This document shows positions 18,621 to 57,247 of a stretch of DNA of 64,000 nucleotides, piece by piece. The stretch comes from Bolinopsis microptera (Eukaryota; Ctenophora; Tentaculata; Lobata; Bolinopsidae). Numbering within the stretch: position 1 is the stretch's first letter; the number at the start of each line of letters is the position of its first letter. Location of the stretch: assembly GCF_026151205.1 (NCBI RefSeq), contig NC_087084.1, positions 7,117,394 to 7,181,393 on the forward strand, written 5' to 3'. Below the pieces are notes generated by a model. The model was given only the letters and a program-made list of their open reading frames with translations. It ran no database searches and had not been told where the DNA came from. A program made the position numbers and the translations under genes.

Positions 18621-19542
18621 TGCCTTGACCTTTCGACGAGTGTTTGCCCACAGGGGATCAAAAAAATATGAATCACCTTGAAACATAACTTTGACACGTG
18701 AACTTATCAAACGACTGTAATGATTCCATTTAATTTTATTAGTATATTAGCTAGTTTATAGTAGTTACACACGATCAAAGAATTGAATAGCACAATTGGG
18801 CTCATTTGTTATGCGACCGTGTTTTCCCTCGGTGGGCCAGAAGGTTTTTGTTTGTGTAGTAGTGAGGGGGCGGAAAAACACGCTTTAATATAAATGAATG
18901 TTAAATATTGTAATTGACATTAGTGTGCCACAAGTTGATGTGGTTAAAACAAAATTTATGTCTAAACTTTTATCGTAGAAGGGCACTGATTTACCCACAT
19001 CACTAAGGCATATGGAGGATAATTAGCACAAAAGGATAAAAGCCTTTAAAACATGGACCTCCTGCTATTCAACGTACGTAATCCTAGCTCCAAAATAAAT
19101 AATTGCTCTAATTAGAAATCATCTGGCTGATACTTTTCAAAATTGTGGTCCCCTTGGGGCTTCGGTTAAAGCCCTTACAGGCAACAGGTCCTTATACAGC
19201 TCCCCAATTAATCTTTGTCATGCCCAGCCAGTACTTGTCATAAACCTGTACCAACTATTTTAAAATAAGTATACTTTTGCTAGAATTTTACATTTTAAGC
19301 CATAGAGCAATATTCTCAATTTTAAATTTAAAAAACATTTTACCCTAACTATGATGTGGTGGCATTTTCATACTTAACTAAAATTAAACTTTGGCAAAGT
19401 CAATAGATTATTAGTCACAACATTAATTATAGTTTAAGGGAATCCATTTTGCAATTGTGTTTCCATTGATTAGAATTTATGATATGTATTGAGTGAATAA
19501 TTGGTAAATAAATTAACTTTGTTTTATTACTTTTGTTTTATT
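18621..19542 (+). repeat. Array, partial unit 0 (3' region only)
   Basis: The array enters inside the 3' region at TGCCTTGACCTTTCGACGAG and runs to the terminal CTTTTGTTTTATT repeat. The CXC, GC and RT blocks are absent. Confidence 0.85.
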
Positions 19543-20680
19543 AATTCAGATGTTGTTCAATGAGTTCGCCACAAATGTTCAAATTATGTAGGTGGGTTAA
19601 AGGGACAACAATTGCTAGTAGTGATTTCTTTATTTGGCCGTTGACTACATTGGAAACATTTTGCAGGAGTTTTCCAGACGGCTTTTATCGTGAGTGGTGT
19701 TATTTACTTTGTTATGCACAAGCCATGCCAAACATTTTTGTTTTTGTGTTAGCCGTGCTACCAGGTGCAGAGTTTTATATAACACTAAACACTTATTCAC
19801 TATACAAATTTGCTAATACAATATCAAGCAGTGTCCGATCTTGCTGCAACGTCAGACACACAGTTCAGCCGCCAGTAACGTTAAGTGAACACCGAAACAC
19901 GAGGTTAGTGTTCATTTTGTAAAATCACTTTATGGATGGATAATTCAGTAATTGTGGAAGAAAATTACAGTCATGCCACCTATAGCGTCTATGTCATGGG
20001 TCTGATTAACGGCCAAGAATAAAAAACGTTGTGCGAGCATAAGAAAACACCGAGCTATATGTTGAGGTAGGGAGTAGCTGCGCGCGCGCTTTTAACATTA
20101 TTACGTTATAGCGCCGTACGGAAACGCAATATTTATAGTATTAACGTATTTGTTTTCATATATTTCCACGTTTTATCAATATCTTAGCATGGTCCAAAAC
20201 TTGTTTAAAGTTGTCATTATTGCCCACTCATTATAGAACCTGCTTTGGGAATCTAGAAGAGATCGGTTTAGCCTTTGATTTGATTGAGTTTACAGATGTG
20301 TTCACAAAGGAGGTTTATTCTGTGGATTGGAGGTCCTTGATTGATTCCAATGCCAGAGTTTTATAATAAGTTATGGCTTGGCTTTGGTGGTATTAGACGG
20401 TCATCCCTCAGTTCCAGACATGTTTAAGTAAAGAGTAGAGAGGATATTGGGTACCTTATAATTTTCACTATTTTAAAAAGTTCAGTTATAGTTACGAAGT
20501 TTGTAAAAGATTCATGAACAGTAAGGAGTTTTATGGACGTTAATAATGGTTGGTTGATTCCTTGGAATGGATATTCAGCTCCTAGTTTTTGACAACCATA
20601 AGGGTCTAACAAAGTTTATTATGATTTTCCGATTTGTCTCCCACCTAACTTTGGAGGCACGTAAAACACGATACTGCTGG

Positions 20681-21240
20681 TGCCACGCTTTCAATGGATC
20701 GACACAACCAGTTGGATACAACCGCGATTTAGGTTAGGATCCGGCTTTTCAGACGATCGGCATCTATGATTGAATGTGTAATAGTGCTTTTTATTCGGCA
20801 AATTCTTACACCCAGCAACCATAAAGCATGTCGGAGAACTTTTGATTGATGAAGTGATTTCATAACAATCGAGAATGACTAGATGAAGCTAGACTTTCAG
20901 TTCTTGACAGAAGTCGCAATCTTCAACTGCAGGACATTCAAGTTGGGGACAGCTCCCGCCACAATCTGCGGACAGCCTGAACAACATTCTAATCTTGTTT
21001 AACCATCAGCTGCAGCGTAAGATAATAATAACCTAGATCGATAAGCTGAGGATGAAAATGAATAATGGGGGATGTACAGTGACCACTCTTATGAATAAAG
21101 CTCCGAAAAAGCTCATTAAAACATCAGTTTGCAACTGTTTTAAGTAGTTGGGAATGCTTGTTCATGCAGAAAGCAGGAATACAATTGTGGATCAACCTGC
21201 CTTAAATGTCAGGACAATTGCACAATGTGCTGCTGAGGAA
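20681..21240 (+). pseudogene. CXC (tesmin/TSO1-like) TE-protein fragment, unit 1
   Basis: The six copies together (by eye) give HAFTGSDTTSW, then LPPTS...EQHS.VYHQLQ, LDP.SWGW, VPVTT..., and a cysteine array C-x-C-x4-C-x3-C-x-C-x6-C-x3-C-x2-C-x3-C. This matches the tail of CXC-domain proteins common in invertebrate repeats. In this copy the cysteine part is broken near 21,140 and 21,175. Confidence 0.6.
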
Positions 21241-21529
21241 TTATAAGTAAGGACTCTTATCTAGTATTTAATATGGTCATATCTAAATTACTGCTTCGAT
21301 TTCACGATAATTTGAGTGAAAGTTGTTTATTATCATGTTACGTAATTTTAAAATATTTTGATCGAAAATAATTTTATAATTTTGAATATTTGTTTTATAA
21401 TTGATTAAACTAATTATATTAATTATCTAATCAAATGGTTGTCAGATAAAAGTTGTTTATCTTTCCTGTTTGAACACATCTTTTAATCTAGAACTTTCTA
21501 TGACATCAGAAGTCGTTTTTATTGGCCTA

Positions 21530-21945
21530 TCCGTCGCGGGTGTTAGAGTTCCGAGGCGGAGCCGACGGACCTCCGAGCGGATTCGGCACGGTGCTCCGCT
21601 AAAATGTATGTACACTGGACTCGAAGTACATTTTGGCGGAATCCAGCGGAGCACACGAGCGAATCCGAGCGGACTCCGTGCGGACTTTTAATTCCGCCCG
21701 CGGACTCCGAGCGGCCTCCGCGGCGGCTCGGCAGAGTGCCGTCCGGCAGAGGCTAAGCCACTGGCGGACTTCCGGACGCTGCGGACTCGGCGGAGTGCTT
21801 GCGGGACTACGCCCGGAACCTCTCCGCAAAGAATTGAAATCCGCCGGAGTCCGCCCCAGCTCGGCGGACTCCGCTCGGAGTCCGCCCGGACTCCAACAGA
21901 GTCATGACCTTCTAGACCTCCGACTTCGACCCTCGGACTAAATTT
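21530..21945. repeat. GC-rich palindromic block, unit 1
   Basis: About 400 bp of CGGACTCCGAGCGG / CGGAGTCCGCC motifs in both orientations, in an otherwise AT-rich unit. The long frames on both strands here are composition artefacts. Confidence 0.9.
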
Positions 21946-22114
21946 TTCACGTGAATTCAACATAGCATTTTGCAATATTGTGGTCAGATAAAGGTCGCGA
22001 AGTGTATAACTTAACCATTACCATAACAAATGTCAATTGTGTACAACTCTAGTCCTAACTTTGAACCCTACTAATGTCATAAACGTTGACCCTAACCCTC
22101 CACCAAACCGTACC

Positions 22115-23530
22115 GCAGCGAATTATCATGGCATTGATATTCTCCAGGCTTTACAGTTTCTTTCCCCTGTCGCAAGGAATTATTTTATGATTATCTATAA
22201 TGGCTTCAGGAAAAATCATTCGACAAGCCATTGCACTTAAACTTCTTCTGTCGATCTAACATTGAAAAATAACTAAGGATAAAAAATCATTGTTCTAGGG
22301 GCATATTTCATTGATTTAAGTTAAAGCTTTTGATACAATCTGTAATATAAACTGCTTAAAAAACTGAATGATTATGGATTCGTGGGACTGCAAATAAATG
22401 AATAGCCAGTTACCTCATATAATAGGCAGCAATATGTTTTCAGTACTTGGTGACAGAATCCGAAATAAACTGTCTGTAATATTTGGTGTGCCCAGGGTCT
22501 GTATTCAGGTCCCGTGCTTTTATTATCTACATCAATGAAAATATATAGAGTATAAGAACCTATGTAAGTTTATTACTTTTGCCGATGCAAATAACATATT
22601 TGTTGTCTGATAAAATGTATAAAACACTTTACTGCAAGCTTTACAAAATCTTAAAACTTGTCTCATCAATATATGATAGAGTTTCTTCTGCTGCATATCA
22701 ACACAAAGAAATGTTGTTATATCCACTTTAAGCCGAACTGTAGAAATGAACAGATTCAATCACTAATGACATTAGAATAACTGACAATGGAATAATATAA
22801 TAATTAAAAAGGTTAGAGGAAACTAAGTTTCTTGAGTCATTATGGACAAAAAACTGAACAGGGATGCTCATTGGGAGCGTTAAGTCGTAACATTGAAATT
22901 GTGATGGTAGACTCTGTGGAATCAGTCGCTGTGTACCTAAAACACTTAATTAAGGACCTGTACCACACCCTTTTTGAATCTCATCTATGTTATGGAATAT
23001 ATGTTTGGGGAGGTGTATCATAATAGTTAAACTAGAAGAAGCCATATTTAAAACACAAAAGAAATGCATAAGAATTCTCTTTGGTGATATTGATGCGTAC
23101 TGCAATAAGATCAAAACATGTGCCAGAGTAAGGCCTATCATAGGGATAAGACGGTAAAGTTATCAAGCAGATGTTAGGGCAAAGATTTCTTTGAACCTAG
23201 AAACACTGTAAACAATACTGTACGAGTATAATTCCTGACTGTACACAATTCTTCATAAGTAGTTGCACTGTTTACTTGAAATGTTTTTAAAATTATAAGT
23301 TCCATCACCAGTCTAATGTTCTCTTTATTAATCAGGTCACCAGACGTGCAATCTACCTCATCACACCACTCCGTCAGACTATTCATCTACAATCAAACCA
23401 GTATTTGGAATCACTGCCGTAAGTCAACGAGTGAAAATAGTCTTCTCCCACTACTATCAGTATATTCTCAAGTATAATCTAAGAAAGCTGTCGTTAGAAC
23501 TACAATCTAAATAGACAGACAATACTATGT
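22115..23530 (+). pseudogene. LINE reverse transcriptase fragment, unit 1
   Basis: GFRKNHSTSH is readable at about 22,204. DLSKAFDTI, VPQGSVLGP and FADDT are present but shifted by indels, and the RT-end FGITAVSQRV lies near 23,400. The endonuclease and first RT motifs are absent. The type is CR1/Rex1-like. Confidence 0.75.
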
Positions 23531-26069
23531 GCAGTCTACAACTTTGGATGCAAAGTATTATCCATTGAAAATAGGTTAACTAACTAAACTTAATCATATG
23601 AGTAAACCACGGTGTTATTGACAAAGTACCATGACAAGGGTTATCAGACCTATATATTAATCTAAGAGACGAAACAATACGGATCCTATAAACAATTTTA
23701 AAATCCTGCGGCACAGGATCTGTTGTTTTCCTACTCTGCTCTCCCAAACCCCTTCCTTCCCCTTTTCTTCAGGTTTATTTTCAATTTTTTTCAAATTAGA
23801 TAGCAGATATATTTTCTTTCGAATTCAGTAATGGCATTATACATATTTGGTATGGTGTGTATGTTGTGTTTAGTGTTTGCAACTAGGTATGTGCTGTATA
23901 TGTTTGAAGAATTGAGGCTCACGACGTATCGTCCCATGGGTTGAGTTGTAAGCTGTGTATATGTTCAATCGCCTTACTTCGTATGGTGAAAACATCGACA
24001 GGTTTGCCTTGGACCTTTCGGACGGAGTGTGTTGCACAACCGGGGATCATAAAAATATGATCACCATGAACATTACTTTGACCGGAACTTATCAAACGAC
24101 TGTAATCGATTCCATTTAAATGTTTGTCAGTCATTAGTAATATAATTAGCTGTATTAGTAGATACACCACGATCACAGAATTAGAAGAGCACAATTGGGC
24201 TATTTGTATCTGCGACCGTGTTTCCTCGTGGGCGACAGGTTTTGTTGTGTAGTAGTGCTGGGAAATAACACGCTTTAAATAACAGAATGAATGCTAAATA
24301 TTGTTAATTGACATTGTTTTTTTGGCCACAGTTTATGTGTAAAACAAAATTTATGGTCAAACATTATATATCGTAGAAGGCATGATTTACCAACATCACT
24401 AAGCATCTGGATGGATAGTTTGCACACAAGGCATAAACTGACCATTTAAAAATGACCACCAGCTATACAAGTAAATATAGCTACAAAAATATATAATTGC
24501 TCTACATAGAAACATCTAGGCCTGATCTTATCACATTGTGGTCCCTGGGTTCAGGTATAAGACCATTCACAGGCAACTGGGTCTTTTACCAGCCTCAATA
24601 AAACTAGTCATGCCAGTTCTGTCATAACTGTAACCAACATATTTAAAAATATGATATCTTTGCTAGAATTTTCACATTTTGAGCATTGAGCAATTCTTAT
24701 CAATTTTAAAATTTTAAAATACTAATTTTACCCATAACTATGATGTGTGCATTTCATTATTAAACTAAAATTCATCTTTGAAGTCGATAGATTATTAGTC
24801 ACACTAAAATTATAGTTTACAGACATCCTTTTTGCTTTGTGTTTCCTTTATTAGAATTTATGATTGTATTGATTGAATAAATTGGTAATTAATTTAATTT
24901 TGTTTTATTAACTTTTGTTTTATTATTCAGAAGCAGTAGTTGTTCAATGATTCGCCACAAAAATGTTCAAATTATGTAGGAGGTTAAAGGACCACAATTG
25001 CTCGTAGTGCTTCTTTGTGCCCGTTGACTACAATGAACAATTTTGCAGGAGTCTTCTCCAGACGGGCTTTTATCGGAAGTGCGTGTTATTTACTTGGTTT
25101 TGCACAAGCCAGGCCAACATTTTTGTTTTTTGTGTTAGCCGTGCTACCAGGTTGCAGAGTATTATAAAAACTAAACAATTTATGCACTATACAAATTTGC
25201 TAATACAATATCATGCAGAGTACGATCTAGCTGCAAACGTCAGACACCACAGTTCAGACGAAGTTACGATTTACGTGAAACACCGAAATATAGAGGTTTA
25301 GGTGTCATTTTTGTAAATCACTTTTAGGATGGATAATTCAGTAATTGTTGAAGAAAATTACAGTCACTGCCACCTTTAGCGTTATGTCATGCGGTATGAT
25401 TTAAGGCCTAAGCATAACGTTACGTGGCGCATAAGAAACCAGCGCTATGTTGAAGGAGAGTAGCTGCACGGCGCGCTTTTTAACATATATTACGTAATAG
25501 CGCCGTACGGAAACGGCAATATTTAAGTAATTATGTATTTGTTTACATAAATTCCACGTTTTTATCAAATAATCTTGCATGGTCCAAAACTGTTTTAGTT
25601 GTCATTATGCCTCTCATATCGAACATGCTTTGGGCATCTAGAGAGATCGGTTTAGCCTTGATTTGATGAGTTACTGGATGTGTTCTCAAAGTCTGGTTTA
25701 TTTGTGGATTGGAGTCCTTGAATTGATTCCAAAGCACCAAGAAGATTTATAAATATAGTTATGGCTTGGGACTTTGGTGGTATTAGACGGTCATCCTCAG
25801 TTCAGACATGTTAAGTAATGAGTAGAGAGATATGGGTTACCATATATTTCCTATTTAAAAAGTTCAGTTATCAGTACGAGTTCGTAATGATTATGAACAG
25901 TAGGAGTTTATGGACTGTTTAAAATAATGGGTTTGGTTGATTCATTGGAATAGAATTCAGCTCCTAGTTTTTGACAACATAAGGTCTAACAACGGTTATT
26001 ATGAACTACCGATTTAGACTCCCCCTAAACTTGGAGGCACGTAAACACGATACTGCTGTCCCCCTGCTG

Positions 26070-26632
26070 TGCCACGCTTTCCCAGTTCAGACTCCACAGT
26101 TGGATCACGGAATTGTAAGGATGGCTATTAAGACCGATCGCACTCTATCGTTGTAAGTAGTAATAGTTGCTTTTTTTTCGGCAAATTCTACAACAGCAAC
26201 CATTATGAATGTCGGAGAACTTTTGATGCTGAAGTTGATTTAATCTCATAATCGAGATGACTTGATGAAGCTAGACTTTCAGTCTTGAACAGAAGTCGCA
26301 CAACTTCAACAGCAGGCATCAGTGGGAACAGCTCCCGCCAACCATCTGGGCAGCTGAACACACATTCTAATCTTGTTTACCATAGCTGAGGCGTTAAGAT
26401 TATAATAACATAGATACGATAAGCTGAGGATGAAAGAAGAATAATGGGGCGCATGTTCCAGTGACCACTCTTATGGAATACAGCTCCGAAAAAGCTCTTT
26501 AAAACAAATCCAGTTGCAACTGTTTAAAGTCAGGTTGTGGCAATGCCTTTGTCTACATGCAGAAAGCAGGAATACATTGTGGATAAACCTGCCTTAAATG
26601 TCAGGACAATTGCACCAATGTGCCAGCTGAGG
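26070..26632 (+). pseudogene. CXC TE-protein fragment, unit 2
   Basis: Best-preserved start of the cysteine array (CNCLKSGCGNA at about 26,513). The second half (RKAGIHCG, then CLKCQDNCTNVPAED near 26,595) is in another frame after an insertion and carries one stop. Confidence 0.6.
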
Positions 26633-26934
26633 ACTTTCATATTGTAAGACTCTTATTTAGTATATAATATGGTTAAATATAAAGTACTGCTTCGATTTCC
26701 CGATTAATTTAGTTGAAAAAGTTGTTTATTAGTCCTGTCTACGTATTTAATATATTTTGATCAGAAAATAATGTTATAATTTTTGAATGTATGTTTTATA
26801 ATTGATTAATAATTTATAAATTATCTAATCAAATGGTTGTCAGATAAAAGTTGTTCTCTTTCCTGTTTGAACACATCAGTTTAATCTAGAACTTTCTATG
26901 TCATTAGAGAAAGTCGTTTTTATTGGAACTACGT

Positions 26935-27330
26935 AGCGGAGTAGAGTCCAGCGGCGGAGCCGCCCGGCACTCCGAGAGGACTCCGGCGGTTGCTCCGATA
27001 AAATGTATTAACACTGGACTCGAGTACATTTTGGCGGGACTCACGAGCGGAGCCGAGCGGACTCCGAGCGGACTCCGAGCGGACCTTTAAAGTCCGCCGC
27101 GGACTAGAGGCGGCTCGCGGCGGCTCGAAGAGGTCCGCGCGCAGAGTAAAGCCACTAGGCGGACTCCGGTCCGCTGAGGACTCCGGCGGAGTGCTTGGCG
27201 GACTCCGCGGACCTCTCAGCCAGACTTGAATCCGCCGGAGTCCGCAGTCGGCGGACTCCGCGCGGAGTAAGCCGACTCCAAACAGCGTCCACTGACTTCC
27301 GACCTCCGACTTCCGACCCTCGGCTAAAAT
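26935..27330. repeat. GC-rich palindromic block, unit 2
   Basis: Repeated GAGCGGACTCC / GGAGTCCGC. It includes TTTAAAGTCCGCCGCGGACT as the central near-palindrome. Confidence 0.9.
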
Positions 27331-27494
27331 TTGTCACGTGACATACAACATAGCATTTTGCCAATTATTTGGTCAGATGAAAAAGGTCGCTAGTGATAAA
27401 CATTAACATTACTCACAGTCAATAGGGTTACAACTCTAGTCCTAACTTTGACCCTTAATTTTATAACTTTGACCTTAACCCTCACCAAAACCGT

Positions 27495-28880
27495 CCGCAG
27501 CGAAATATTCATTGTCATTGATATTCTCCTGGCTTTACAGTTTCTTCAGTCGCAAGGTTATATATGAAAATCATATGGCTTCAGAAAAAATCATTCGACA
27601 AGCCATGCACTTACTTCTCTGTCGACTACATGAAAATCATAGAGATAAAAATTCATGTACTAGCTTCTGCATTGATATAATGTAAAAGTTTTTTGATACA
27701 ATCTGTCATGATAAAATGCTTAAAAAACTGAATGATTATGGAATTCGAGGGAATGAAATAAATTTATAGCCAAGTTACCTTCTATTAGGCAGCATATGTT
27801 TTCAGTACTTGGAGAAGATCCGAAAAACTGTCTGTAATATTTGCGTGTTGCCTCAGGAGTCAGTATTAGGTCCCTTGCGTTTCATTATCTACATCAATGA
27901 AATATATAGGAGTATTCAGGAAATACGGTAAGTTTTACTTTTTGCCGATGACACCCAACATATTTTGTTTGTTGATAAATGTATAAAAAACAACTTTACT
28001 GCAAAGCTAACAAAATTCTTTAAACTTGTTCTTCATATATGAAGTGTAACTTGCTGCATATCAACACATAAGAATGTTGTTATATACACTTTAAGCCGAA
28101 CTGTAGAGATGAACCAGATTCAAACACTATTGAATTTGAACTGTCAATGGTTATTTATAATATTTAAAAAGTGAGGATTAAGTTTCTTGGAGTCATTATG
28201 ACCAAAAACCTGAACTTGGGATGCTCACTGAGAGCGTTAAAATAGTTATAATTGAAAAGGTGAGATGGTAGATATGTTGGAATAGACGATGTGTACCTAA
28301 AACACTCTATTAAGGACCTGTACCACACCCTTTGAGAATTCACAACCTATGTTATGAATATCGTTTGGGGATGGTGTATCAAATAATAAACTAGAAGCCA
28401 TATTTTAAATACACAAAAGAAAATGCATAAGGAATTCTCTTTGCGTGATAATGATGCGTACTTCAATATGTTCAAAACATGTGCAGAGTAAGGACTAGCA
28501 CTAGGGTAAGACGGTATGTTATCAAGCAGTTGTTAGGCAATTGCTTTCTTTGTTCTAGAACACAGTAACCAATCTGTAACGAGTTTAAACTTCCTGACTG
28601 TCCCATCAATCTTCATAAGTTGCCCTACTGTTTACTGGAAATGTTTAAAATAATAAGTTCCCAATCCACCAGTCTCAATGTTTCATTTATTCAACAGGTC
28701 ACCAAGACGAGACAACTACTCATCCCACCACTCCGTTCCTCTTATTCATCTACCTAATCAAACAGTATTTGAATCACTGCCGTAAGTCAACGAATAGTGA
28801 ATTAGACTTCTCCACTCCTATACAGTATTTCAAAGATAATCTTAGAAAGCTTGTTAGAACTACATTCTAAATATGACAGA
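27495..28880 (+). pseudogene. LINE reverse transcriptase fragment, unit 2
   Basis: The catalytic FADDT is intact at about 27,940. KLNDYGIRG lies near 27,730 and the region of CYGISVWGG-type RT C-terminus near 28,350. It is frameshifted in at least ten places. Confidence 0.75.
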
Positions 28881-31438
28881 CAACTATGGTGCAGTTACAA
28901 CTTTGATGCAAATGATTTCATTGAAATAGGGTAATTAACTAAACTTAATCATATGAGTAAACCACGGTGTATTGCAAAGAACATGACAAGGGTATCAGGG
29001 ACCTATATATTAATCTAAGGACGAACAAAACGAATCTTCATACAAAAATTTTAAAATCCTGCGGGCACAGATCCTGTTGTTTTCCTACTCTGCCTCTCCC
29101 CAAACCCCTCTCCTTCCCTTTCTTTCAGGGTTATTCTTCAATTTTTTTAATTAAGATAGCAGATTATTTTCTTTCGAATTAGTAATGGAATTATACATTA
29201 TTTGGTATCGTATGTATGTTGTGTTAGTGTTAGTAACTAGTATGTGCTTGAATATTTTGAAGAATTTGGAGGATCACGACGTCTCGTCCCTTGGGTTGAG
29301 TTGTAAGTGAGTATATGTTCAAATAGCCTTACTTCGTATGGTGAAACATCGAAAGTTTGCCTTGACCTTTAGGTGGAGTGGTTTGCCCTCGGGGATCAAA
29401 AAATATGACTTATCCATGAACACTTACTTTGACACGTGAACCTTATAAAAAACGTCTGTAATGATCCATTAAATTTTCTTAGTATATTTAGCTAGTTTAT
29501 AGTAGATACACATCGATTCTCAAGAATAGAAAGCACAATTGGGCTCTTTGTCTGCGACCGTGTTTCCTCGGTGGGCCGGACAGGTTTTTGTTGTGTAGTA
29601 GTGCTGGGGAAAAATACCACGCTTTAAATATCAATGAATGTAATATTGTTAATTGACATTAGCATGCAAACAGATTTATGTGGTAAATACCAAATTTATG
29701 TCAAACATTATTTTCGTAGAAGGCATGATTCTACCAACATCACTAAGCTTATGGCATGGATAATTAGCACACAAGGATAAACTGACCTTTTAATCAAGAC
29801 CACGAGCTTTACCACGTAATCATAGCTCCCGAATAAAATAAATTGCTCTACATAGAAACATCTGGCCTGATCTTAATCACATTGTGGTCCCCTGGGGTTC
29901 GGGTAAAGGCCCTTTACAGGCAACTGGGTCCTTTTACAAGCCACAGAAAATCTAGTCATGACCTGTACTGTCTCATAACTGTAACCAACTATTTAAAAAA
30001 TAGATATCTTTTGCTAGAAATTTTACATTTTAAAGCCATAGAGCATCTTCTCAATTTTAAAATTTAAAAATAACATTTTTCCCTAACTTGATGTGGTGGG
30101 CATTTCATACTTAATAAAATTAAACTTTGAAAGTTCATTAGATTATTAGTCACAACAAAAATTATAGTTTAAGACATACATTTTGCTATTGTAGTTTCCA
30201 TTTTAGAATTTATGATATGTAATGTTTGAACTAATTGGTAATATATTTATTTTTGTGTTTATTAACTTTTCCTGTTTTATTAATTCAATGTTGTTCAATG
30301 AGTTCGCCAAAAAATGTTAAAATAATGTAGTGAGGGTTAAGGACACAATTGCTAGTAGTGCATCTTTGTGCCGTTGACTACAATGAACATTTTGCCGGGA
30401 GTTTCTCCAGACGGCTTTTTTATCGGGAGTGCGTGTTATTTACTTGGTTTTGCAAAAGCCAGGCCAACATTTTGTTTTTGTGTTAGCCGTGCTTCCAGGT
30501 TGCAGAGTATTCTAAACATAAAAACAATTATAAACTATTCATATTGCTTATACAATATCATCAGAGTCCGATCTAGCTGCAAAAACGTCAGACAACCACA
30601 GTTTCAGCCGCAAGTAAACGTTTAAGTGAAACACCGAACACACGAGTTTAGGTGTTCATTTTGTAAATAAATTTTTTTTTTTTATGGGTGGCTAATTCAG
30701 TAAATTGTTGAGAAATATTACAGGTCACTGCCACCTTTAGCTGTTTATTGTCAGGGTTCTGATATTAACGGCAAGAATAAACGTATAGTGCGCGCATAAG
30801 ATACCCGCGCAAATGTTGAGGTAGGGAGTAGATGCGGCGCGGTTCTTAACATATATTACGTTTAGCGCGTACGGAACAGGCAATATTTAAGTAATTAAAG
30901 TATTTGTTTACATAAATTCAACGTTTTTATCAATATATAGCATGGTCAACAAAAAACTGTTAAAGTTGGTCATTATGCCCATCCCATTATCGAACACTGC
31001 ATTTGGGAATCTAGAGAGATACGGTTTAGCCTTGTTTTGATTGAGTAAGGAGGTGTTCACAAGTGTCAGGTTTATTCTGTGGATTGGGAGTCCTTGAATT
31101 GTTTCAAAGCCAAGAAGATTTAAAATAAAGTTATGGGCTGGCTTTGGTGGTTTTTGACGGTCTACCCTAAGTTCAGACATGTTCTAAGTAGAGAGTAATA
31201 GAGAGATAATGGTGCCCTAATACTTTCACTATTTAAAATGTTCAGTTATAGTACGAAGGTTTGTAAAGATTATGACAGTAAGGTGTTTATGACTGTTAAA
31301 TAATGGTTTGGTGTTTCCCTTGGAATAGAATTCTGCTCCTAGTTTTTGACAACCTAAGGGTCTAACAAGTTTATTATGAATACCCCGTTTAGGACTACTC
31401 CCTTAAACTTGGAGGCACGTAAACACGATACCTGCCTG

Positions 31439-31999
31439 TGCCTCGCCTTGCAATGCGATCAGACCCACCAGTTGGGACCACGGAATGGTAAGGATAGGCT
31501 ATTCAGAAACGATCGCATCATCGATGAAAGTGTAATAGATGCTTTTTATTCGGCAAATTATACACAGCAACATAAAGCATGCGGAGAACTTTTGATGCAG
31601 CAGTTGATTTCATCACAATCGAGATGAATAGATGAAGATAGACTTTCAGTTCTTGACAGAAGTCGCAATCTTCAACAGCAGACATCATGTGGAACAGATC
31701 ACGCCAACATATGGGACAGCTGTACAACATTCTAATCTTGATTACCTAGCTGGCAGGGCGTAAGTTAATAATAACTAGATCGATAAGCTGAGGATGTAAG
31801 AAGAATAATGGGGCGAACCTGTACCAGTGACCAATCTTATGAATACAGCTCCGAAAAAGCTCATCTTTAAAAAATCAGTTGCAACTGTTCTAAAGTTCAG
31901 GTTGTGGCATTGTTGTTCATAGCCAGAAAAGCAGGAATACATTGTGGATCAAACCTGCCTTAAATGTCAGGGACAATTGCACCATTGTGCCAGTGAGGA
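31439..31999 (+). pseudogene. CXC TE-protein fragment, unit 3
   Basis: Same block as in units 1-2. The cysteine array begins at about 31,870 but is shifted by extra bases near 31,882 and 31,922. Confidence 0.55.
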
Positions 32000-37659: not shown

Positions 37660-38055
37660 CCGTAGCGGAGTAGAGTCCGCGGCGGATGACCGCCGGAATA
37701 CGAGCGGACTCAGGGCGGTGGCTACGACTACAAATGTATGTACAATGGACTCAGTAATTTTTGGGCGGTTACGAGCGAGCCGTGCGGACTCCGAGCGGAC
37801 TCGGAGGAAGTAAGTCCGCGCGAATCCGAGCGGCTCCGCGGCGGCTAGGCAGAGTGTCCGCCAGCAGAGTATGCACTAGGCGGACTACGGTACGCATGCG
37901 GACTAAGGCGGAGTGCATTGGCGGAATCCGCCGGACATCTACGACCAGACTTGAATCGCCAGGAGTCCGACAGCTCGGCGGACTCCGCTCGGTTTCCGCC
38001 GGACTCCAAGCAGAGGTCCACGTACTTACGACTCAACTCTCCGACATCGGCTAAA
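37660..38055. repeat. GC-rich palindromic block, unit 4
   Basis: Same architecture as the other units with more C-to-A changes (for example CGGACTACGGTACGC), slightly lowering GC. Confidence 0.88.
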
Positions 38056-38224
38056 TTTTTGTCACGTGAAATACAAATAGCATTTGCTATTTTGTGGGTC
38101 AGATGAAAAGGTCGCTAGTGATTAAACTTAAACATTACCCTACTTCTGTCATAGTGTACAACTCTAGTCCTAACTTTGACCCTTTTATGTTAAAACGTTG
38201 ACCCTTAACACCTCCACCAAAACG

Positions 38225-39640
38225 TACCGCAGCGAAATATCATATGTCATTGATATTCGACCAGGTTTACAGTTTTCTTCCAGAAATCGCAAGGTTTATT
38301 TTATGAAAATCAATATGGCCTTAAGAATAATCATTCGACAAGACTTGCTACTTAAATTCTCTGTCGCAGATACTACAATTTAAAATTCACTAGAGATTAA
38401 AATATTCATGTACTAGGAATCTTCCATTTGTTTTAAGGTAAACGCTTTGATACAATCTGTCATGATAACTGCCTTAAAAATGTATGATTATGGAAATTCG
38501 AGGGACTGCAAATAAATTAATAGCCCAGTTACCTCTCTATTAGGAAGCATTATGCTTGCAGTACTTGGAGTAGAATCCGAAAAACTGTCTGTAACTATTT
38601 GGTGTGCCTCAGGGGTCAAGTATTTGGTCCATTGCTTTTCATTATCTAAATCAATGAAATAGTAGTAGGTATCAGAACTAGGTAAGTTTATACTTTTGAC
38701 GATGCACCAAAAGATTTGTTTTGTAGATAATGTTATAAAAACTTTACTGCAAAGCTAACAAAAATTCTTAAACTTGTTAATCATTTGAAGAGTAACTTGC
38801 TGCATATCACACACAAAGAAATGTTGTTATATCCACTTTAAGCCAGAACTGTAGATATGAAACCAGATTCAAACACTAATGAATTGAATGACACTGAATA
38901 AGATAATATTTAATAGGTAGAGGAAAACTAAGTTTCTTGAGTCATTAATGACCACAATAAACTGAACTGGGATGCTCCACTTGAGAGCGTTTTTAAATCG
39001 TATATTGGAAATGTGAGTCTTGTAGACCTATGAGGAATTCAAGACGCTGTGTACCTAAAACACTCTATAAGGAACTTTACCACACCCATTTTTGAATCAC
39101 ACTATGTTTGGAATATCTGTTTGGGTAGGTGTATCAAATAATAATCTAGAGCCATATTTAAAAACACAATAGCAAATGCATAAGAATTCTATTTGGTGTT
39201 AACTGTTGCGTACTTCAATAGTTCAAAACGATGTGCCTGAGTAAGGTATCACTAGGGATAAGTCCGGTAGTTTCAAGCAGTTGTTAGGCTAAAAGATTCT
39301 TTGAACTAGAACACAGTAAACCAAATCTGTAACGAGTATAAAATTCCTGACTGTCCCACAATCTTCATAAGTTGCAACTGTTTACTGGAAATGTTTAAAA
39401 TTGAATAAGTTCAATACAGTATCAATGTTCTTTTATTCAAACAGGTGGAGGCCACCAAGACAGACAACTACCTCATCCCACCAACTCGTCCCTCATATTC
39501 ATCTTCCAATAACCAGTATTTGGAATACTGCCGTAAGTCAACGTGTTGAAATAGACTTCTACACTCCTATCAGTATATTCAAGATTAATCTTAAGGAAGC
39601 TTTGTTACGAACTACAATCTAAATATGACAGACAACTATG
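38225..39640 (+). pseudogene. LINE reverse transcriptase fragment, unit 4
   Basis: VPQGS is recognisable near 38,606 (GTGCCTCAGGGGTC). FADDT at about 38,693 is damaged. The C-terminal AVSQRVEIDF...PISIFK is readable at about 39,525-39,585. Confidence 0.72.
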
Positions 39641-42178
39641 GTGCAGTTACAATTTGATGCAAAATGAAATTATCATTGAAATAGGTTAATTAACTAACTT
39701 AATCATATGAGTAAACCACGGTGTTATTGCAAAGAACCATACAAGGGTATACAGGACCTATATATTAATCTAGAGACGAAACAAAACGAATCAATACAAC
39801 AAATTTTAAATCCTGCGGGGCACCAGGTTCCTGTTGATTTTCCTACTATGCCTCTCCAAACCCTCTCCTTCCCTTTCTTCAGGTTTATCTTCAATTTTTT
39901 AATAATTTGTTAGCAGATTTATTTTCTTTTCAGAATTAAGTATGGATTATAAATTATTGGTATCGTATGTATGTTGTGTTTAGTGTTTTGACCTTAACTT
40001 AGGTAGATGCTGTTTATTTTGAAGAAATTTGAGGCTCCACGACGTTCGTCCCAGGGGTGAGTTGTATGCATGTGTATATGTTCAATCGATTACTTCGTTA
40101 TGGGTGAATCATCGGACAGTTTGCCTTGACCTTTTCGGACGAGTGTTGGCCCACCGGGGATCAATAAAAATTATGTTCACATGATATTACTTTGACACTG
40201 TTGACTTATCCAAACGACTGTATTGATTCATTAAATTTTCTTAGTTTTTTAGATAGTTTATAGTAGTTACACACGATCACGAATAGAGAGCACAATTGTA
40301 TTTGTCTGCGACCGTGTTTCCTCGGTGGGACGACAGGTTTTTTGTTGTGTAGTAGTGTGGGGAAAAAAAACACGCTTTAAATATCAATGAATGTAAACTA
40401 TGTAATTACATTAGTGCAAAAGTTTATGTGGTAAAAAATATTTATGGTCAAACATTATAACTCGTAGAAGGGCATGATGTACCCACTCACTAGATCTGGA
40501 TGGATAATTAGCACAAGGATAAAATGACCTTTAAACATGACCACCAGCTATACCCGTAATCATAGCTCCAAAATAAATAATTTGTATACATTGAAACATC
40601 TGCCTGATATCTTTCACATTGTGTCCCATGGGCTTCGGTAAAGCCCGTCAGGCAACTGGGTCCTTTAACAGCCACAATAAAAAATAGTATGCCAGTACTG
40701 TCATAATTAGTAAACCAACTATTTTAAAAATAAGGATTTCTTTGCTAGAATTTTACATTTTAAGCCATGAGCAAATCTTTCTCAATTAAACATTTAAAAA
40801 ATAACATTTTACCTAAATATGACTTGTGTGGCATTTTCATACTTACTAAAATACAAACTTTGGAAAGTCAATAGATTATTAGTCACAACAAATTATAGTT
40901 TATGACATCCATTTTGCATTGTGTTTCCATTATTAGAATTTCATGATATGTCTTTGATTGAATAATTGGTAATATATTTAACTTTTGTTTTATAACTTTT
41001 GTTGTTTTAATTAGATGTGTTCAATGAGTTCGCCAACAAAAATGTTCAAGTTATGTAGGAGGGTAAAGGACACAATTGCTAGTAGTGACTTCTTGTGCCC
41101 GTTGGACTACAATGAACATTTTGCGGAGGTTTCTCCAGACGGCTTTTATCGGAGTGCGTGTTATTTACTTGGTTAGGCAAAAGCCAGGCCCAACTTTTTG
41201 TTTTTGTGTTAGCCGTGTGCTTGCTACCAGGTTTGCAGAGTATTATAACACTTAAACAATTATACACTATACAAATTTGCTAATTCATATCATGCTGAGT
41301 CCGTTCAGCTGCAAACGTCAGACTCACCTGTTCAGCGCCAAGTAACGTTTAACGTGTACACCGAAACACGAGTTTAGGTGTCATTTTGTAAATCACAATT
41401 AATGGATGGAAATTCAGTATTGTTGAAGAAAATTTACAGTACACTGGCACCTATTGCGTTCTTTATGTCATGGGTCTGATTAACGGCAAGAATATACGTA
41501 CGTGCGCGCATAAGAAACCCGCGCAAATGTTGAGGTAGGGAGTAGCTGCGGCGCGCTTTTAACTATATTACGTATAGAATTTAACGCCGTACGAAACAGG
41601 CAATATTTAAGTAATTTAAGTATTTGTTTACATAAATTCCACGTTTTCTATCAAGAATCTAGCAGGACCAAACTGTTTAAAGGTAGTAATTATGCACTCA
41701 TTAGCGAACTGCTTTGGGCATCTAGAAGAGATCGGTTTAGCATTGATTTGATTGAGTTACAGGATCGTGTTCACAAAGTCAGTTTATTCTGTGGATTGGT
41801 AAGTCCTTGAATTGATTCCAAAGCCAAGAAGATTTATAAATATAGTTATGCTTGGCTTTGGTGGTATTTGACGCGTCATCCCTCAGTTCAGACATGTTAT
41901 AAGTGAGAGTAGAGAGATTGGGTACCCTATATTTCCTATTTTTAAAAGTTATCAGTATTATAGTTCGAAGTTTGTAAAGATTATGAAACAGTAAGGAGTT
42001 TATGGACTGTTATAATGGTTTGGTTGATTCCTTGGAATAGAATTCAGCTCTAGTTTTTTGACAACATAAGGGTCTAAAATAAAAATAAAAAAAAAAAAAA
42101 AAATAACAAGGTTTTCTCTATGGAACTACCGATTTAGATCCCCCTAAACTTGGAGGCACGAGTATAAAACGATACTGC

Positions 42179-42751
42179 TGTGACACACGCGTTTCACTGG
42201 ATCAGACACCAACAGTTGGATCCATCGGAATTGGTAAGGATCGGCTATCAGAACAATGCGCATCTATCGATGAAAAGGTGTAATAGATGCTTTTTATGCG
42301 GCAAATTCTACACAGCAACTATAAAGCATGTCGGAGAACTTTTGATGCTGACAGTTGATTTCATCACATTCGTAGTTTACTAGATGAGCTAGACTTTCAG
42401 TTCTTGAACAGAAGTCGCAAATCTTCAACCCAGCAGACATCAAGTGGGAACAGCTCTACGCCAACATCTGCGGACAGTGAACAACATTCTATATTGTTTA
42501 CCATCAGCTGCAGGGTAAGATATTAATAACTAGATCCGATAAGCTGAGGAGATGAAAGAAGAATAATGGGGCGCATGTACCAGTGACCACTCTTTTGAAT
42601 ACAACGCACCGAAAATGATCATTTAATACTCTCAGTTGCAATGTTTATATTCAGGTTGTGGCAATGATTGTTCAAGCAGAAACTGAAGGAATACATTGTG
42701 GATCAACCTGCCTTAAATGTCAGGTCAATTGCACCAATGTGCCAGCTGAGG
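42179..42751 (+). pseudogene. CXC TE-protein fragment, unit 5
   Basis: HVGELLMLTVDF is readable at about 42,330. The cysteine array at 42,634-42,740 keeps the later Cys codons (CLKCQVNCTNVPAE) but loses the first CxC. Confidence 0.57.
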
Positions 42752-43059
42752 GACTTCATTAAGTAAGACTCTTATCTAGTATATAATATGGTCATATATT
42801 AAGTACTGATTCGATTTCCGATTAATTTTAGTGAAAGTTGTTTATTATTCAATGTTACGTAATTTTAAAATATTTTGATCGAAAAATAAATTTGATATTT
42901 TTGAATATTTGTTTAAATAATTGAGTAACTAATTATAATTTAATTATTCTAATCAAATGGTTGTCAGATAAATAAGTTGTTTCTCTTCCCTGTTTTGAAA
43001 ATCATCAGTTTTAATCTAGAACTTTTCTAAGACATCAGAACGTCGTTTTTATTGGCACT

Positions 43060-43460
43060 ATCCGTCGAGGAGTAGTGTCCGCGGCGGAGCGCCGGACTCG
43101 AAGCGGGACTCACGGCGGTGCTAGCTTAAAATGTATTTACACTGGATCGGGTACATTTTGGCGGACTCCGAGCGGAGACGAGGGACTCCGAGCGGGACTC
43201 CGGAGCGGACTTTAAAGTCCGGCGCGGACTCGAGCGGCCTACGCGGCGGCTCGCAGAGTGTCCCGCCGCAGAGTAAGACACTAGGCGGTCTCCGGTCCGC
43301 TTGCGGACTACGGCGGAGTGCTTGGCTGGACTCCGCGGACCTCTCCGCCAGACTTGAATCCGCCGCGAGTCCGCCAGCTAGGCGGTACTCCGCTCGGAGT
43401 CCGCCGGACTCCAACAGAGTCCTCTGACTTCCGACCTCCGACTTCCGACCATCGGCTAAA
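43060..43460. repeat. GC-rich palindromic block, unit 5
   Basis: Same block. The frames on both strands (about 43,121-43,565) are artefacts of its composition and inverted symmetry. Confidence 0.9.
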
Positions 43461-43629
43461 TTTGTCAATTGACATACAACATAGCATTTTGCAATATTGT
43501 GTAGATGAAAAGGTCGTTAGTGAATAAACTTTTACCATTACCCTCACAAAGTCAATAGTGTACAACTCATAGTCCTATCTTTGACCTATAATGTATAAAG
43601 TATGACCCTAACCCTCCACCTAACCGTCC

Positions 43630-45020
43630 GCAGCGAAATATCATTGTCATTGATATTCTCCAGGCTTTACAGTTTTTCAGTCGCAAGAGAGTATTATATG
43701 TAAATCAATATGCTTCAGAAAAAATCATTCGACAAGCCATGCACTTAAACTTCTCTGTAGACTACATTGATAAATAACTTAGAGGATAAGAATCATGTTC
43801 TAGGCATCTTCATGATTTAAGTAAAGCTTTTGATACAATCTGTCATGATAATGCTTAAAAAACTGAATGATTATGGAATTCGAGGGACTGCAAATAAATT
43901 AATAGCAGTTACCTCTCTAATAGGCAGCATCTTGGTTTGCAGTACTTGGTGAAGAATCGAAATAAATCTGTCTGTATATTTGGTGTGCCTCAGGGGTCAG
44001 TATTAGGTTCCCTTGCTTTTCATTATCTATTCTATGAAATATATAGAGTATCAGACCTAGGTAAGTTTATTACTTTTTGCCGATGACACAAACATATTTG
44101 TTGTAGTTTATGTATAAAACACACTTTCTGCCAAGCTAACAAAATCTTATCCTAGTTACACTTCTATATATGAAGATAACTTGCTGCATATCAACACAAA
44201 AGAAATGTTGTTATATCCACTTTATGCCGAACTGTAGAAATTGACCTGATTCAAACACCTTATGAATTAGAACTGACACTGAATAATATAATACATTATA
44301 ACGGTAGAGGAAACTAAGTTTCTTAGGAGTCATTGATTGACCAAAAAACTGACTGGATGCTCACTTGTGAGCGTAAAATCGTAATTGATATGTGAGATTG
44401 GTTAGGACTATGTGAATCAGACGCTGTGTACCTAAAACACTCTATAAGGACCTGTACCACACCCTTTTTGAATCACAACCTATGTATATGGAATATTGTT
44501 GGGAGGTGTATCAAATAAATAACTAGAAGCCATATTAAAAACAATAGAAATGCATAAGAATTCTCTTTGGGTGATAAATGATTGCGTACTTCAATAAGAA
44601 ACTTCAAAACATGTGCCTGCGAAAGGCCTATCATAGCGGATAAGTCCGGTAAAGTTATCAAGCCAGAGTGTTAGGCAAAGATTTCTTTGAACTAGAAACA
44701 CAGGTAAACAATCTGCTAAGTAGTTTAAATTCCTGACTGTCACCGATCTTCATACAGTTGCACTGTTTATGGAAATGTTTAAAATTAATTAAGTTCACAT
44801 CACCAGTCTCAATTGTTTCTTTATTCACAGGTCACCAAGGACGAGACAACTACCTCATCCACCCACTCCGTCCTCACTATTCATCTACCAAATCAACATG
44901 TATTTGGACTCTCACTGCCCGTAATTCAACGAGTGAATAGACTTCTCCAATCCTACAGTATATTCAAGAATAATCTTAAGAATAGCTTTGTTAGAAACTA
45001 ACAATCTAAATATGACAGAA
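43630..45020 (+). pseudogene. LINE reverse transcriptase fragment, unit 5
   Basis: Among the clearest copies. SKAFDTICHD lies near 43,823, VPQGSVLG near 43,987 (one extra T after it), an intact FADDTNIFVV near 44,083, and FKNNLK near 44,970. Confidence 0.78.
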
Positions 45021-47557
45021 ATATGGTGAAGTTACAACTTTGATGCAATTGAATTATCATTGACAATAGGTTAATTAACCTAACTTAATCTTATGAGTTA
45101 AACCACAGGTGTTATTGCAAAGAACCATGACAGGGTATCTGACCTATATATTAATCTAAGAGACGAACAAAACGAATCATCATACAACAAATTTTAAAAT
45201 CCATGCGGCACAGTATCCGTTGTTTTCCAACTCTGCTCTCCCAAACCCTCTCCTTCCCTTTCTTCGGTTTATTCTTCAATTTTTTAAATGTAGATAGCAG
45301 ATATATTTTCTTTCGAATAGTATATGGCATTATACATTATTTGGTATCGTAGGTTGTATGTTGTGTTTAGTGTTTTGATAAAATAGTATGTGCTGTATAT
45401 TTGAAGATTTTGAGGCTCACGAGTACTAGTCCCATGGTGGAGTTGTAGCTGAGTATATGTTCAAATCGCCTTATTCGTTTGTGTGAAACATCGACAGGTA
45501 TTGACCTTGACACTTTCGGACGAGTGTTTGCCCACCGGGGATCAAAAAAAATATGATCACCATTGAACATTACTATGACACGTGAACTTATCATCGTCTG
45601 TAATGATTCCATTAAATTTCTTAGTATATTTAGTGTTTATAGTAGATACACACGATCACAGAATAGAAGAGCACAATTGGCTCTTTGTTCTGCGACCGTG
45701 TTTCCTCGGTGGGCCGAACAGTTTTGTTGTGTATAGTGCTGGGGGAAAAAAAACAGCTTTAAATATCAATGAATGTAAATATTGTTTAATTGACATTAGT
45801 GCCCACAGTTTATGTGCGTAAAACAAATTTTTGGGTCAAACATTATATATCCGTAGAAGGGCATGATTTTACCCACATCACTAAGATTGGATGGATAATT
45901 AGCACACAAGGATAAACTGACTTTAACATGACCACCAGCTTACCACGTAATAATAGCTCCAAATAAATATTGCTCTACATAGAAAAATATGGCATGATAT
46001 TATCACAATGTGGTCCATGGGGTTTAGGTAAGCCCTTACAGGCATACTGGGACCTTTCTTTTACCAGCCACAATAAAAACTTGTCTGCAGTACTGTCATT
46101 AAACTGTAACCAACTATTTAAAATTAAGATATCTTTTGCTTAGAATTTTACATTTAAGCCATAGAGCATTCTTCTCATTTTTAAATTTAAAAAAACATTT
46201 TACCCTAACTATGATGTGGTTTGGCATTTTCATACTTAACTAAAAATCAACTTTGTGCAAAAGTCAATAGATATTAGTCACAACAAAATTATAGTTTCTA
46301 AGACATCCATTTTGCATTTTGTGTTCATTATTAGAATTTATGATATGTATTGATTGAATAATTGGTAATAAATTTAACTTTTGTTTTATTAAATTTTGTT
46401 TTTATTAATATAGTGTTAGTTCAATGAGTTCGCACAAAAATGTTAAAATTATGTAGGGGGTAAAGGACACAATTGCTTAGTAGTTGCTTCTTGTGCCGTT
46501 GACTACAATGAACATGTTGCGGTTTCTCCAGTCGGCTTTTATCGTGGAGTGCGTGTTATTTCTTGGTTATGCACAAGCCAGGCCAAAATTTTGTATTTGT
46601 GTTAGCGGGATACCAGGTTGCAGAGTATTATAAAACACTAAACATTATACACTATAAAAATTTGCTATTACAATATCATGCAGAGTCCGATCTAGCTGCA
46701 AAAGTCAGACACCCACAGTTCAGCCGCCAAGTAACGTTTAAAGTGAAACACCGAAAACCGAGGTTTAGGTGTCATTTTGTGAAATCACTTATGGATGGAA
46801 TAATTCAGTAATTGTTGAAGAAAATTACTGTCACTGCCACCTATGCGTTATGTCATTGGGTATGATTAACGGCCAAGAATAAAATCGTACGTGCGGCTAA
46901 GAAAACCCGCGCAAATGTTGAGGTTGGGAGTAGCTGCGGCGCGCCTTTTCTGACATATTATTAGTATAGCGTCCGTTACGGGATTCTGCAATATTAAGTA
47001 ATTAAGTATCTTGTTTACATAAATTCCACTTTTACAATAAATGTAGCATGCGTCCATAACTGTTAAAGTTGTCATTATGCCACTCATTATAGAACTGCTT
47101 TGGGCATCTAGAAAGAGATCGGGTTTACGCCTTGATTTGATTTGAGTTTACAGGATTGTGTTCACCAAATTCAGGTTTATTCTGTGGATTGGAGTCCTTG
47201 AATTGATTCAAAGCCAAGAAGATTTATAAATAAAGTTATGGCTTGGCTTGGTGGTTATTAGACGGTCATCCCTCAGTTCCAGGACAATGTTAAGTAAGAT
47301 GTAGAGAGTTATGGGTACCCTATATTTCACTATTTTTAAAAAAGTTCCGTTTATAGTACCGAAGTTTGTAATGGTTATGAACAGTAATGAGTTTATGAAT
47401 GTTAATAAGGGTTTGGTTGATTCTTGGAAAATTGAATTCAGCTCTAGTTTTTTGGAAAATAAAGGGTCTAACAAGTTTATTATGAAAAAACGTTTTTTTT
47501 TAAAAAACCCGAATTTAGGATCCCTAAATTGGAGGCACGTAAAACACGATACTGCTG

Positions 47558-48111
47558 TGCCACGCATTCACTGGATCAGACACCAGTTGGAACCACGGAA
47601 TTGGTAAGTTCGGTATTCAGAACGATCGCATCGATCGTTGAAAGTGTAATAGATGCTTTTTATTCGGCAAATTCTACACCAGAAACCATATTGCATGTCG
47701 GAGAAATTTTGATGCTGCAGTTGATTTCATCAAATCGAGAATGATAGATGGAAGCTAGACTTTCAGTTCTTGAACAGAAGTCGCAAATCTTCACAGAGAC
47801 ATCAAGTGGAACAGCTCCCGCCAACATCTGGGGACAGATCTGCACAACATCTTTCTAATCTTGTTACCCATCAGCTGCTGGGTAAGTAATAATAACCTAG
47901 ATCCGATAAGCTGGGATGGAAGAAGAATAATGGGGCGCATGTACATGACACTCTATGTATTTACAGCTCCGAAAAAGCTCATTTTAAAACATCAGTTGCA
48001 ATGTTTAAGTCAGTTGTGGCAATGTTGTTTCAGCAGAAAAGCAGAGGAATTCATTGTCGATCAACCTGCCTTAAATGTCAGGACAATTGCACCAATGTGC
48101 CATGCTGGTAG
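47558..48111 (+). pseudogene. CXC TE-protein fragment, unit 6
   Basis: ESVIDAFYSANST is readable at about 47,640. The cysteine region 47,996-48,100 is shifted and has lost a base in the first CxC. Confidence 0.55.
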
Positions 48112-48409
48112 GACTTCATAAGTAAGACTATTTTCTAGTATATAATATGGTCAATATATAAAGTACTGGCTTCTTTCCCGATTAATTATGTGAAAAGTTG
48201 TTTATTATTCATGTTACGTAATTTTTAAATATTTTGATCGACAATAATTTTATATCTTTATGAATATTTGTTTAATAAATGATTAATAATTATTTACTTA
48301 TTAATCAAATGGTTTGTCCAGATAAAAAGTTGTTCTCTTTCATGTTTTGGACAAATCAGTTTAATCTTGAACTTTTAAGAAATCAGAAGTCGTTTTCTAT
48401 TGGCACTAT

Positions 48410-48810
48410 CCGTCGGGAGTAGAAGTCCGCGGCGGAGCCGACGGACTCCGATCGTACTACGACGGTTGCTCCGCTAAAGTGTATTTACACTGGACACGAG
48501 TTCATTTTGCGGACCATACGAGCGGAGGCCGGAGCGGACTCGAGCGGGACTCCGAGCGGACTTTAAAATAAAGTCCGCGCGGACTCCGAGCGGCTCCGCG
48601 GCGGGCTCGGCAGAGTGTCCGCGCAGAGTAAGCCACTAGGCGGACTCCGGTCCGCTGCGGACTCCGGCGGATGTGCTTGGCGGACTCCGCCGGGACTCTC
48701 GCCAGACTTGAATCCGCCGGGAGTACCGCCAGCTCGGAGGAATAAGCCGGAGTACGCCGACTCCAACAGAGTCCACAGACTTACGACCTCCGACTTCCCG
48801 ACCTCGGCTA
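48410..48810. repeat. GC-rich palindromic block, unit 6
   Basis: Last copy. TAAAATAAAGTCCGCGCGG near 48,565 replaces the usual TTTAAAGTCCGCC centre. Confidence 0.9.
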
Positions 48811-48974
48811 ATTTAGTCACTGTGACATACAACATAGCCATTTTGCAATATTGTGGTCAGATGAAAAGGTCGCTAGTGATAAACCTTAATCATTTACTCC
48901 TCACAATGTCAATAGGGTACAACTCTAGTCCTACTTTGACTCTATAATGTATAAACGTTGACCTAACCTCCACC

Positions 48975-50385
48975 ATAACCGTCCGCAGCGATAATAAATC
49001 AATGTCATTGATAATCTCCAGGTTTACAGTTTCTTCCAGTGACAAGGTTTATTATATGAAAATCAATATGGCTCAGAAAAAATCATTCGACAAGCCATGC
49101 ACTTAACTTCTCTGTCGACTACATTGAAAAACACTAAGAGATAAAAATCATGTAATAGGCATCTTCATTGATTTAAGTAAAGCTTTTGATACAATCTGTA
49201 ATGATAAAAACTGCTTAAAAAAATGAATGATTATGGAATTCGAGGGATCTGCAAATAAATTAATAGCCAGTTACCTCTCTAATAGGCTAGCAATATGTAT
49301 CAGTACTGGATGATGGATACGTAAAACTGTCTGTATTATTTGGTGTGGCCTCAGGGGGTTCATAATAGGTCCCTTGCTTTGCATTATTTAACTCAATGAA
49401 AATATTGAGTACAGACTAGGTAAAAAGGGGGGGGGTGTTTTTATAATATTTGCCGATGACACAAAATATTTGTTGTATGTGATAAATGTATAACTTTTAC
49501 TGCAAAGCTAACAAAATCTTAAACTTGTTATCAATATATTGAAGAGTAACTTGCTGCATATCTACACAAAGAATTGTTGTTATATCCACTTTAAGCCGAA
49601 CTGTAGAAATGAACCAGATTCAAACACTAAGATTAGACTGACAATGAATAATATTAATAATTAATAAAAGGTAGATTAGTGGAAAATAAGTTTTAGGAGT
49701 CATTATTGACCAAAACTGAACTGGATTCACTTGAGAGCGTTAATTGTAATTGAAATGTGAGTTGGTTTAACTAGACTATGTGGATTCAGACGGCTGTGTA
49801 CTAAAACACTCTATAAGGTCTGTAACCACACCCTTTTTGAATCAAACCTATCGTTATGGATATCTGTCTTGGGTAGGTGTATCAAATAATAAAACTAGAA
49901 GCCATATTTAAACAACATAAGAAATGCATAGAATTCTCCTTTGGTGTTAAGATCGTACTTCAATAAGTTCAAAACATTGTGCCAGAGTAAGGCCTATCAC
50001 TAGGGATTAAGGACCGGTTAAAGTTATCAAGCAGATGGTTAGGTAAAGATTTCCTTTTGAACATAGAACACAGTTAAACCAATCTGTAACGGTATACTTC
50101 CTGACTGTCAACAATCTTTATAAGTGAACTGTTTACTGAAAATGTTTAATTTAATAAGTTCCAATCACAGTCTCAATGTTCTCTTTATTCAAAGGTCCCC
50201 AAGTCGAGACAATACTCTACACGCAATACGTACTCCACTATTCATCATACCAATCAACCAGTATTTGAATTCACTGCCGTAAGTCAACGAAGTGATACTA
50301 GACTTCTCCAATACATATTCAGTATATTCAAGTATAATCTTAAGAAAAGCTTTGTTAGAACGACAATCTAAATATGACAAGACAA
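48975..50385 (+). pseudogene. LINE reverse transcriptase fragment, unit 6
   Basis: SKAFDTI near 49,180, FADDT intact near 49,451, and the C-terminal FINRS-like stretch damaged near 50,190. AAAGGGGGGGGG near 49,427 is private to this copy. Confidence 0.75.
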
Positions 50386-50646
50386 CTATTGTGTCCTGTT
50401 ACAACTTTGATGCATATGAATTATCATTGACAATAGGTTAATTAACTAAACTTAACTATATGCGATGTAACCACGGTTGTTATTGCAATGAACCATGACA
50501 AGGTATCTGAACCTATATATTAATCTAAGAGACGAAACAAAACGAATCATCATTACAACAAATTTTAAAATCTGCGGGCACAGGATCCTGGTTGTTTTAC
50601 TACTCTGCCTCTCACAATCCCCTATTTTCTCCTTCCCTTTCTTCAG

Positions 50647-57242: not shown

Positions 57243-57247
57243 TTCTA

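Follow-up and report, generated by a model that had tools for sequence, protein, structure and literature searches.

Array layout and make-up of the unit

We analysed a 64,000-nt window of contig C13 (C13:7117394-7181393) in the 264.65-Mb, 232-contig assembly of the ctenophore Bolinopsis microptera, focusing on the tandem array that it contains. Self-comparison placed a head-to-tail array with a period of ~5.37 kb at 18621-50647, as the initial annotation of the window had claimed. That annotation counted five full and two partial copies. We recovered the five full units and one sixth unit that is 96% complete, ending at phase 5145 (phases counted from 18621). The other partial copy counted there may correspond to the polished 3' end of a long interspersed nuclear element (LINE) that lies outside the array. 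The units are kilobase-sized and run head to tail, as in a macrosatellite.

18621..50647, + strand: whole array; very probably uncorrected read sequence, part of a ~82-kb noisy block pieced together from C8 and the window
18621..24004, + strand: unit 1, 5384 bp
24005..29357, + strand: unit 2, 5353 bp
29358..34730, + strand: unit 3, 5373 bp
34731..40121, + strand: unit 4, 5391 bp
40122..45502, + strand: unit 5, 5381 bp
~45503..50647, + strand: unit 6, 5145 bp, cut at phase ~5145

Judged from its matches to copies elsewhere in the genome, the unit appears to be a transposon nest made up of the 3' end of one LINE (LINE-A), a reversed fragment of a second (LINE-B), the tail of a cysteine-rich element and a GC-rich, foldback-like arm. 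LINE-A crosses the unit border, running from phase 3546 to ~925 of the next unit. The parts are given below for unit 3, by phase and then by window position, followed by the remaining LINE-A segments.

Phase 1-925: LINE-A 3' end
Phase 923-2027: LINE-B, reversed
Phase 2043-2931: cysteine-rich element tail
Phase 2936-3547: GC-rich arm
Phase 3546-5373: LINE-A
30280..31384, - strand: LINE-B fragment of unit 3, reversed; reverse transcriptase (RT) C-terminus and 3' untranslated region (UTR) of the second LINE
31400..32288, + strand: cysteine-rich (CXC-like) element tail of unit 3
32293..32904, + strand: GC-rich block of unit 3, a dispersed repeat
32903..35649, + strand: LINE-A segment over units 3 and 4, 2.74 kb; RT C-terminal part and 3' UTR
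18621-19544 (3' part), 22137-24925, 27521-30283, 38253-41010, 43653-46408 and 49011-50647 (cut): other LINE-A segments
56025..57243, + strand: polished LINE-A 3' end, 1.2 kb, outside the array

The initial annotation had been right about the GC-rich block and about the truncated reverse transcriptase of a LINE. LINE-A is 5'-truncated in the array; an open frame in L009, a polished copy elsewhere, spans at least 1028 aa and matches RVT_1 (Pfam, 1.9e-36), and the two endonuclease matches in L009 both fall below the Pfam cut-offs. The description of the unit as a tandem mosaic of transposons also stood, but it had named three parts and missed a fourth, the reversed LINE-B at phase 923-2027, which matches the end of the second LINE at L008:1205-2273. 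At phase 2043-2931 the unit matches a cysteine-rich element that is dispersed in the genome and has a polished inverted pair at locus L011. Its earlier CXC label agrees with the cysteine pattern of the polished copies, but a Pfam search with two pieces of L011 returned no family up to an E value of 10. The GC-rich repeat has 694-nt inverted arms, 99% complementary, at locus L033, as in a foldback-like element. The block in the array had been called palindromic; in unit 3 it holds short imperfect inverted repeats with arms of 16-19 nt.

Noise of the array units against polished copies

We compared five array LINE-A segments with L009 and found a mean difference of 9.8% per position. Each 2.74-kb segment carried 73-98 substitutions, 81-102 insertions and 76-92 deletions, and most insertions and deletions (indels) were of 1 bp (404 of 464 insertions and 374 of 401 deletions over the five segments). 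Transitions were scarce, at 3-15 per segment versus 67-95 transversions, a ratio of ~0.1. Polished copies of the same element at L009, L010 and L008 differed little from each other (2738/2741, 2731/2742 and 2730/2738 columns equal in pairwise comparison, or 99.6-99.9%). The polished 3' end at 56025-57243 equalled L009 in 1209 of 1225 columns, compared with ~90% for the array units. Noise ran along the entire unit, with identity at 0.77-0.85 in 18 bins of 300 bp.

The majority of the five LINE-A segments equalled L009 at 2703 of 2732 positions, and for LINE-B the majority equalled the polished copy at 1036 of 1049 positions. In the cysteine-rich part it agreed at only 802 of 858 positions, and the reference copy L011 is therefore probably itself truly diverged. 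The numbers of positions at which zero to five LINE-A segments differed were 1698, 788, 204, 31, 9 and 2, where a binomial model gives 1634, 885, 192, 21, 1 and 0. Differences among the six units were star-like, the 465 two-against-four columns being spread over all 15 pairs at 22-44 each. This pattern is all that we took from a first MAFFT alignment of the units, which overcounts substitutions in indel-rich data.

A true duplication inside the window served as a control and looked quite different. Its two copies (11522-14196 and 15777-18495), 91% alike, differed by 116 substitutions (63 transitions) and by 44 indels, of which 17 were of 1 bp.

The errors were also asymmetric between strands. 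On the unit strand, A>T exceeded T>A and C>A exceeded G>T in all 23 full LINE-A segments of the arrays described below, and the same two excesses held in reversed LINE-B in 6/6 units. Because the array that lies in reverse orientation on C3 shows this bias too, as does LINE-B, which runs against the unit, the bias tracks the strand of the unit rather than the coding strand. For the cysteine-rich part, an excess of A>T over T>A was seen in 6/6 units. Each copy in the array thus carries independent, indel-dominated noise of ~10% from which a majority restores the polished sequence, and for LINE-A and LINE-B the spectrum is tied to the strand of the read. These are the marks of uncorrected reads.

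One noisy block at four scaffold positions

The same noise recurs on three other contigs. C8 carries the block of the window with zero mismatches from 18621 to 41331 and extends to the left beyond 18621, as established by direct comparison of the fetched parts. Identical noise, again with zero mismatches in the fetched parts, is found on C2 (reversed) up to window position 42803 and on C3 up to 25836. The leftward extension is shared by C8, C2 and C3 but missing from C13. Two further arrays, at C3:21.068-21.105 Mb and C12:4.532-4.549 Mb, show noise unlike that of this block. Together these give three source blocks of 82.5, 36.7 and 17.1 kb that share one period and hold the 23 full LINE-A segments.

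We compared the 700-bp flanks of the six arrays, twelve in all: none matched another, and one 47-bp match to the units was found among them. On C13 the left flank adjoins a 366-bp satellite and the right flank starts in a high-copy dispersed repeat, both plausible sites for an assembly gap. This satellite lies at 10226-11173, 13781-14243 and 18087-18495 in the window and forms arrays on many contigs, with at least 358 matches to a 323-bp probe.

Probable uncorrected reads of a tandem repeat

These results make it very likely that long reads of a tandem repeat entered the scaffold uncorrected during assembly, most likely by gap filling, and make up the array in the window. That the array is a finished piece of this chromosome is not supported, given the uncorrected reads and the parts with the same errors on three other contigs. 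Neither the divergence of the array nor its placement in this scaffold is biologically informative. The source would be a long-read platform, and a gap filler would have put the read-derived block into the scaffold.

Inserts of this kind have been described. In one comparison using simulated and real PacBio reads, the mean identity of fills was ~88-90% for LR_gapcloser, 89-95% for PBJelly and 91-97% for TGS-GapCloser, with overfilling of gaps in some cases by PBJelly (PMC8848313). Gap extension and overfilling by PBJelly are described in a second report (PMC7757076), and a third has LR_Gapcloser taking uncorrected reads (PMC6324547). Such inserts resemble the array in having ~90% identity to the true sequence between polished flanks. 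Unlike them, one block is found here at four loci with no anchoring homology; the fit is good and any specific program is a candidate only.

Several observations weigh against this explanation. The ~82-kb block is long for one read. No homology at the junctions was found that could anchor a fill, which leaves the placement step unexplained. The unfetched middles of the blocks on C8, C2 and C3 are known through probe matches only (100% on C8 and C2; on C3 with scores equal to those of C8). The spread of differences per position is slightly wider than binomial, with a high-end excess that includes fixed differences. In the cysteine-rich part C>A exceeded G>T in only 4/6 units and there were 26-35 transitions per unit; this would be expected if L011 is itself diverged, as it probably is. 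All three source blocks (arrays on C8, C3, C2 and C12) share one strand bias, an agreement with a 1 in 4 chance if the three reads are independent. Finally, simulated uniform errors gave 25-38 transitions among 79-99 substitutions, about one third; the observed spectrum is non-uniform, and a machine-specific error spectrum must therefore be assumed. We infer that the special substitution spectrum is that of a sequencing machine.

A probable tandem repeat behind the noise

Each unit carries its own errors, and the tandem order is therefore not the result of the assembler repeating one stretch. A tandem repeat of 5.37-kb units probably exists in the animal. Neighbouring LINE-A segments in the three source blocks are spaced 5345-5403 bp apart. 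Of 2726 positions, only nine have a departure from L009 that more than 8 of the 23 segments share. Eight of the nine are changed in 17-20 segments and were taken as fixed differences. No clear subset variants between units were found among the 23 LINE-A segments, which cover about half of the unit. From these alignments the true units look nearly uniform. The ninth position, 2616, speaks against uniformity: it is changed in 11 of 23 segments, lies beside a fixed change, and reflects either real variation or alignment noise.

We also searched for dispersed copies of the unit, scoring the best 40 candidates in each search. Its parts have separate copies elsewhere in the genome. Within those scored candidates, no polished copy of all four parts together was found, and matches outside the arrays stop at the joins. 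Nor was any single known element with all parts in order found among the scored matches. A partial exception lies on C5 (locus L034, C5:13485000-13490999), where the 3' end of LINE-A is followed by a 234-bp spacer and then by reversed LINE-B, with the parts at 1705-3205 and 5163-5350. LINE-A is 97.6% identical to L009 there, and LINE-B, interrupted by ~2 kb, is 92-97% identical to L008. Two of the four parts are thus in array order, but they are not directly joined and the other two are absent from the 6 kb fetched. On sequence, this locus is possibly a relative of part of the nest; it did not change our assessment of the odds.

Given uncorrected reads of a tandem repeat, their origin is likely to be a real chromosomal macrosatellite of near-identical units at one or a few loci, built from nested transposons and spread by unequal exchange. 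The common period of the three source blocks, the rarity of shared changes outside the nine positions, and the polished C5 locus are all consistent with this. On the other side stand the lack, among the scored candidates, of any polished copy in which the parts are joined exactly as in the array, the fact that no flank has been shown to belong to the array, and the 11 of 23 segments at position 2616. The underlying DNA would then be a young, nearly uniform macrosatellite of pieces from two LINEs, a cysteine-rich element and a foldback-like element, with unequal crossing-over or a circular intermediate as candidate routes of tandem amplification. The full combination, namely a very young macrosatellite with essentially no variation between its units (15 in one block and ~25 over the three), made of a four-transposon nest, missing from the searched polished part of the assembly and possibly maintained or spread as circular concatemers, seems to us rather unlikely.

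The reads might instead come from an extrachromosomal circle, or a head-to-tail concatemer, of one 5.37-kb unit. High uniformity of the units, the same strand in all three sources and the same lack of polished joins among scored candidates would fit such an origin. Nothing shows a circle, however, and the strand agreement has the 1 in 4 chance given above. Chromosomal tandem repeats are commoner than circles, and we consider a circular source improbable.

We also weighed a real, old macrosatellite whose units had diverged to ~82% and had in part been copied recently to other chromosomes as segmental duplications. The occurrence of the block on C13, C8, C2 and C3, where its ends differ and the surrounding sequence is unrelated, would agree with this, as would the star-like differences between units with two-against-four columns spread over all pairs. 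It is contradicted by the close likeness of polished LINE-A copies set against the 9.8% difference of the array copies, and by an error spectrum in which transitions are scarce, indels (mostly of 1 bp) outnumber substitutions and errors are strand-asymmetric. The majority of units equals the polished copy, and the real duplication in the window looks quite different. On the error spectrum and the majority test we therefore rejected this explanation, to which we leave hardly any probability. A local assembly duplication of one unit, which the initial annotation had named as a way for its claim to fail, is excluded by the independent errors in each unit.

The sequence and its placement are thus very probably an assembly artefact, and the repeat behind them probably a young transposon-derived macrosatellite. 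Raw-read fills can mimic ancient diverged tandem repeats together with interchromosomal segmental duplications, and would mislead the dating of repeats. As an instance of transposons becoming tandem repeats, the satellite behind the noise is neat but ordinary. It resembles transposon-derived macrosatellites and retroelement arrays (Cassandra arrays, DXZ4) in having kilobase-sized or retroelement-derived head-to-tail units, and differs from them in that its unit combines four different transposon fragments. The long open frame and strong RVT_1 match of L009 are those of a non-LTR (long terminal repeat) retrotransposon, with CR1/Rex1-like as the candidate clade proposed initially. Unlike a full element of that class, the array repeats only a 5'-truncated 3' part.

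Other features of the window

The 91% duplication used as a control contains a similar pair of open reading frames at 11509-12408 and 15822-16673; the first, which was the one scanned, matches Laminin_G_3 and Pentaxin (Pfam). Two neighbouring copies at 57633-59967 and 59966-62408 share long stretches of 99.5-100% identity in a region with C2H2 zinc-finger coding repeats, and represent either a duplication of very recent date or a copy created by the assembly. Minisatellites with units of 30 bp and 32 bp lie at 693-1566 and 2777-4001, respectively.

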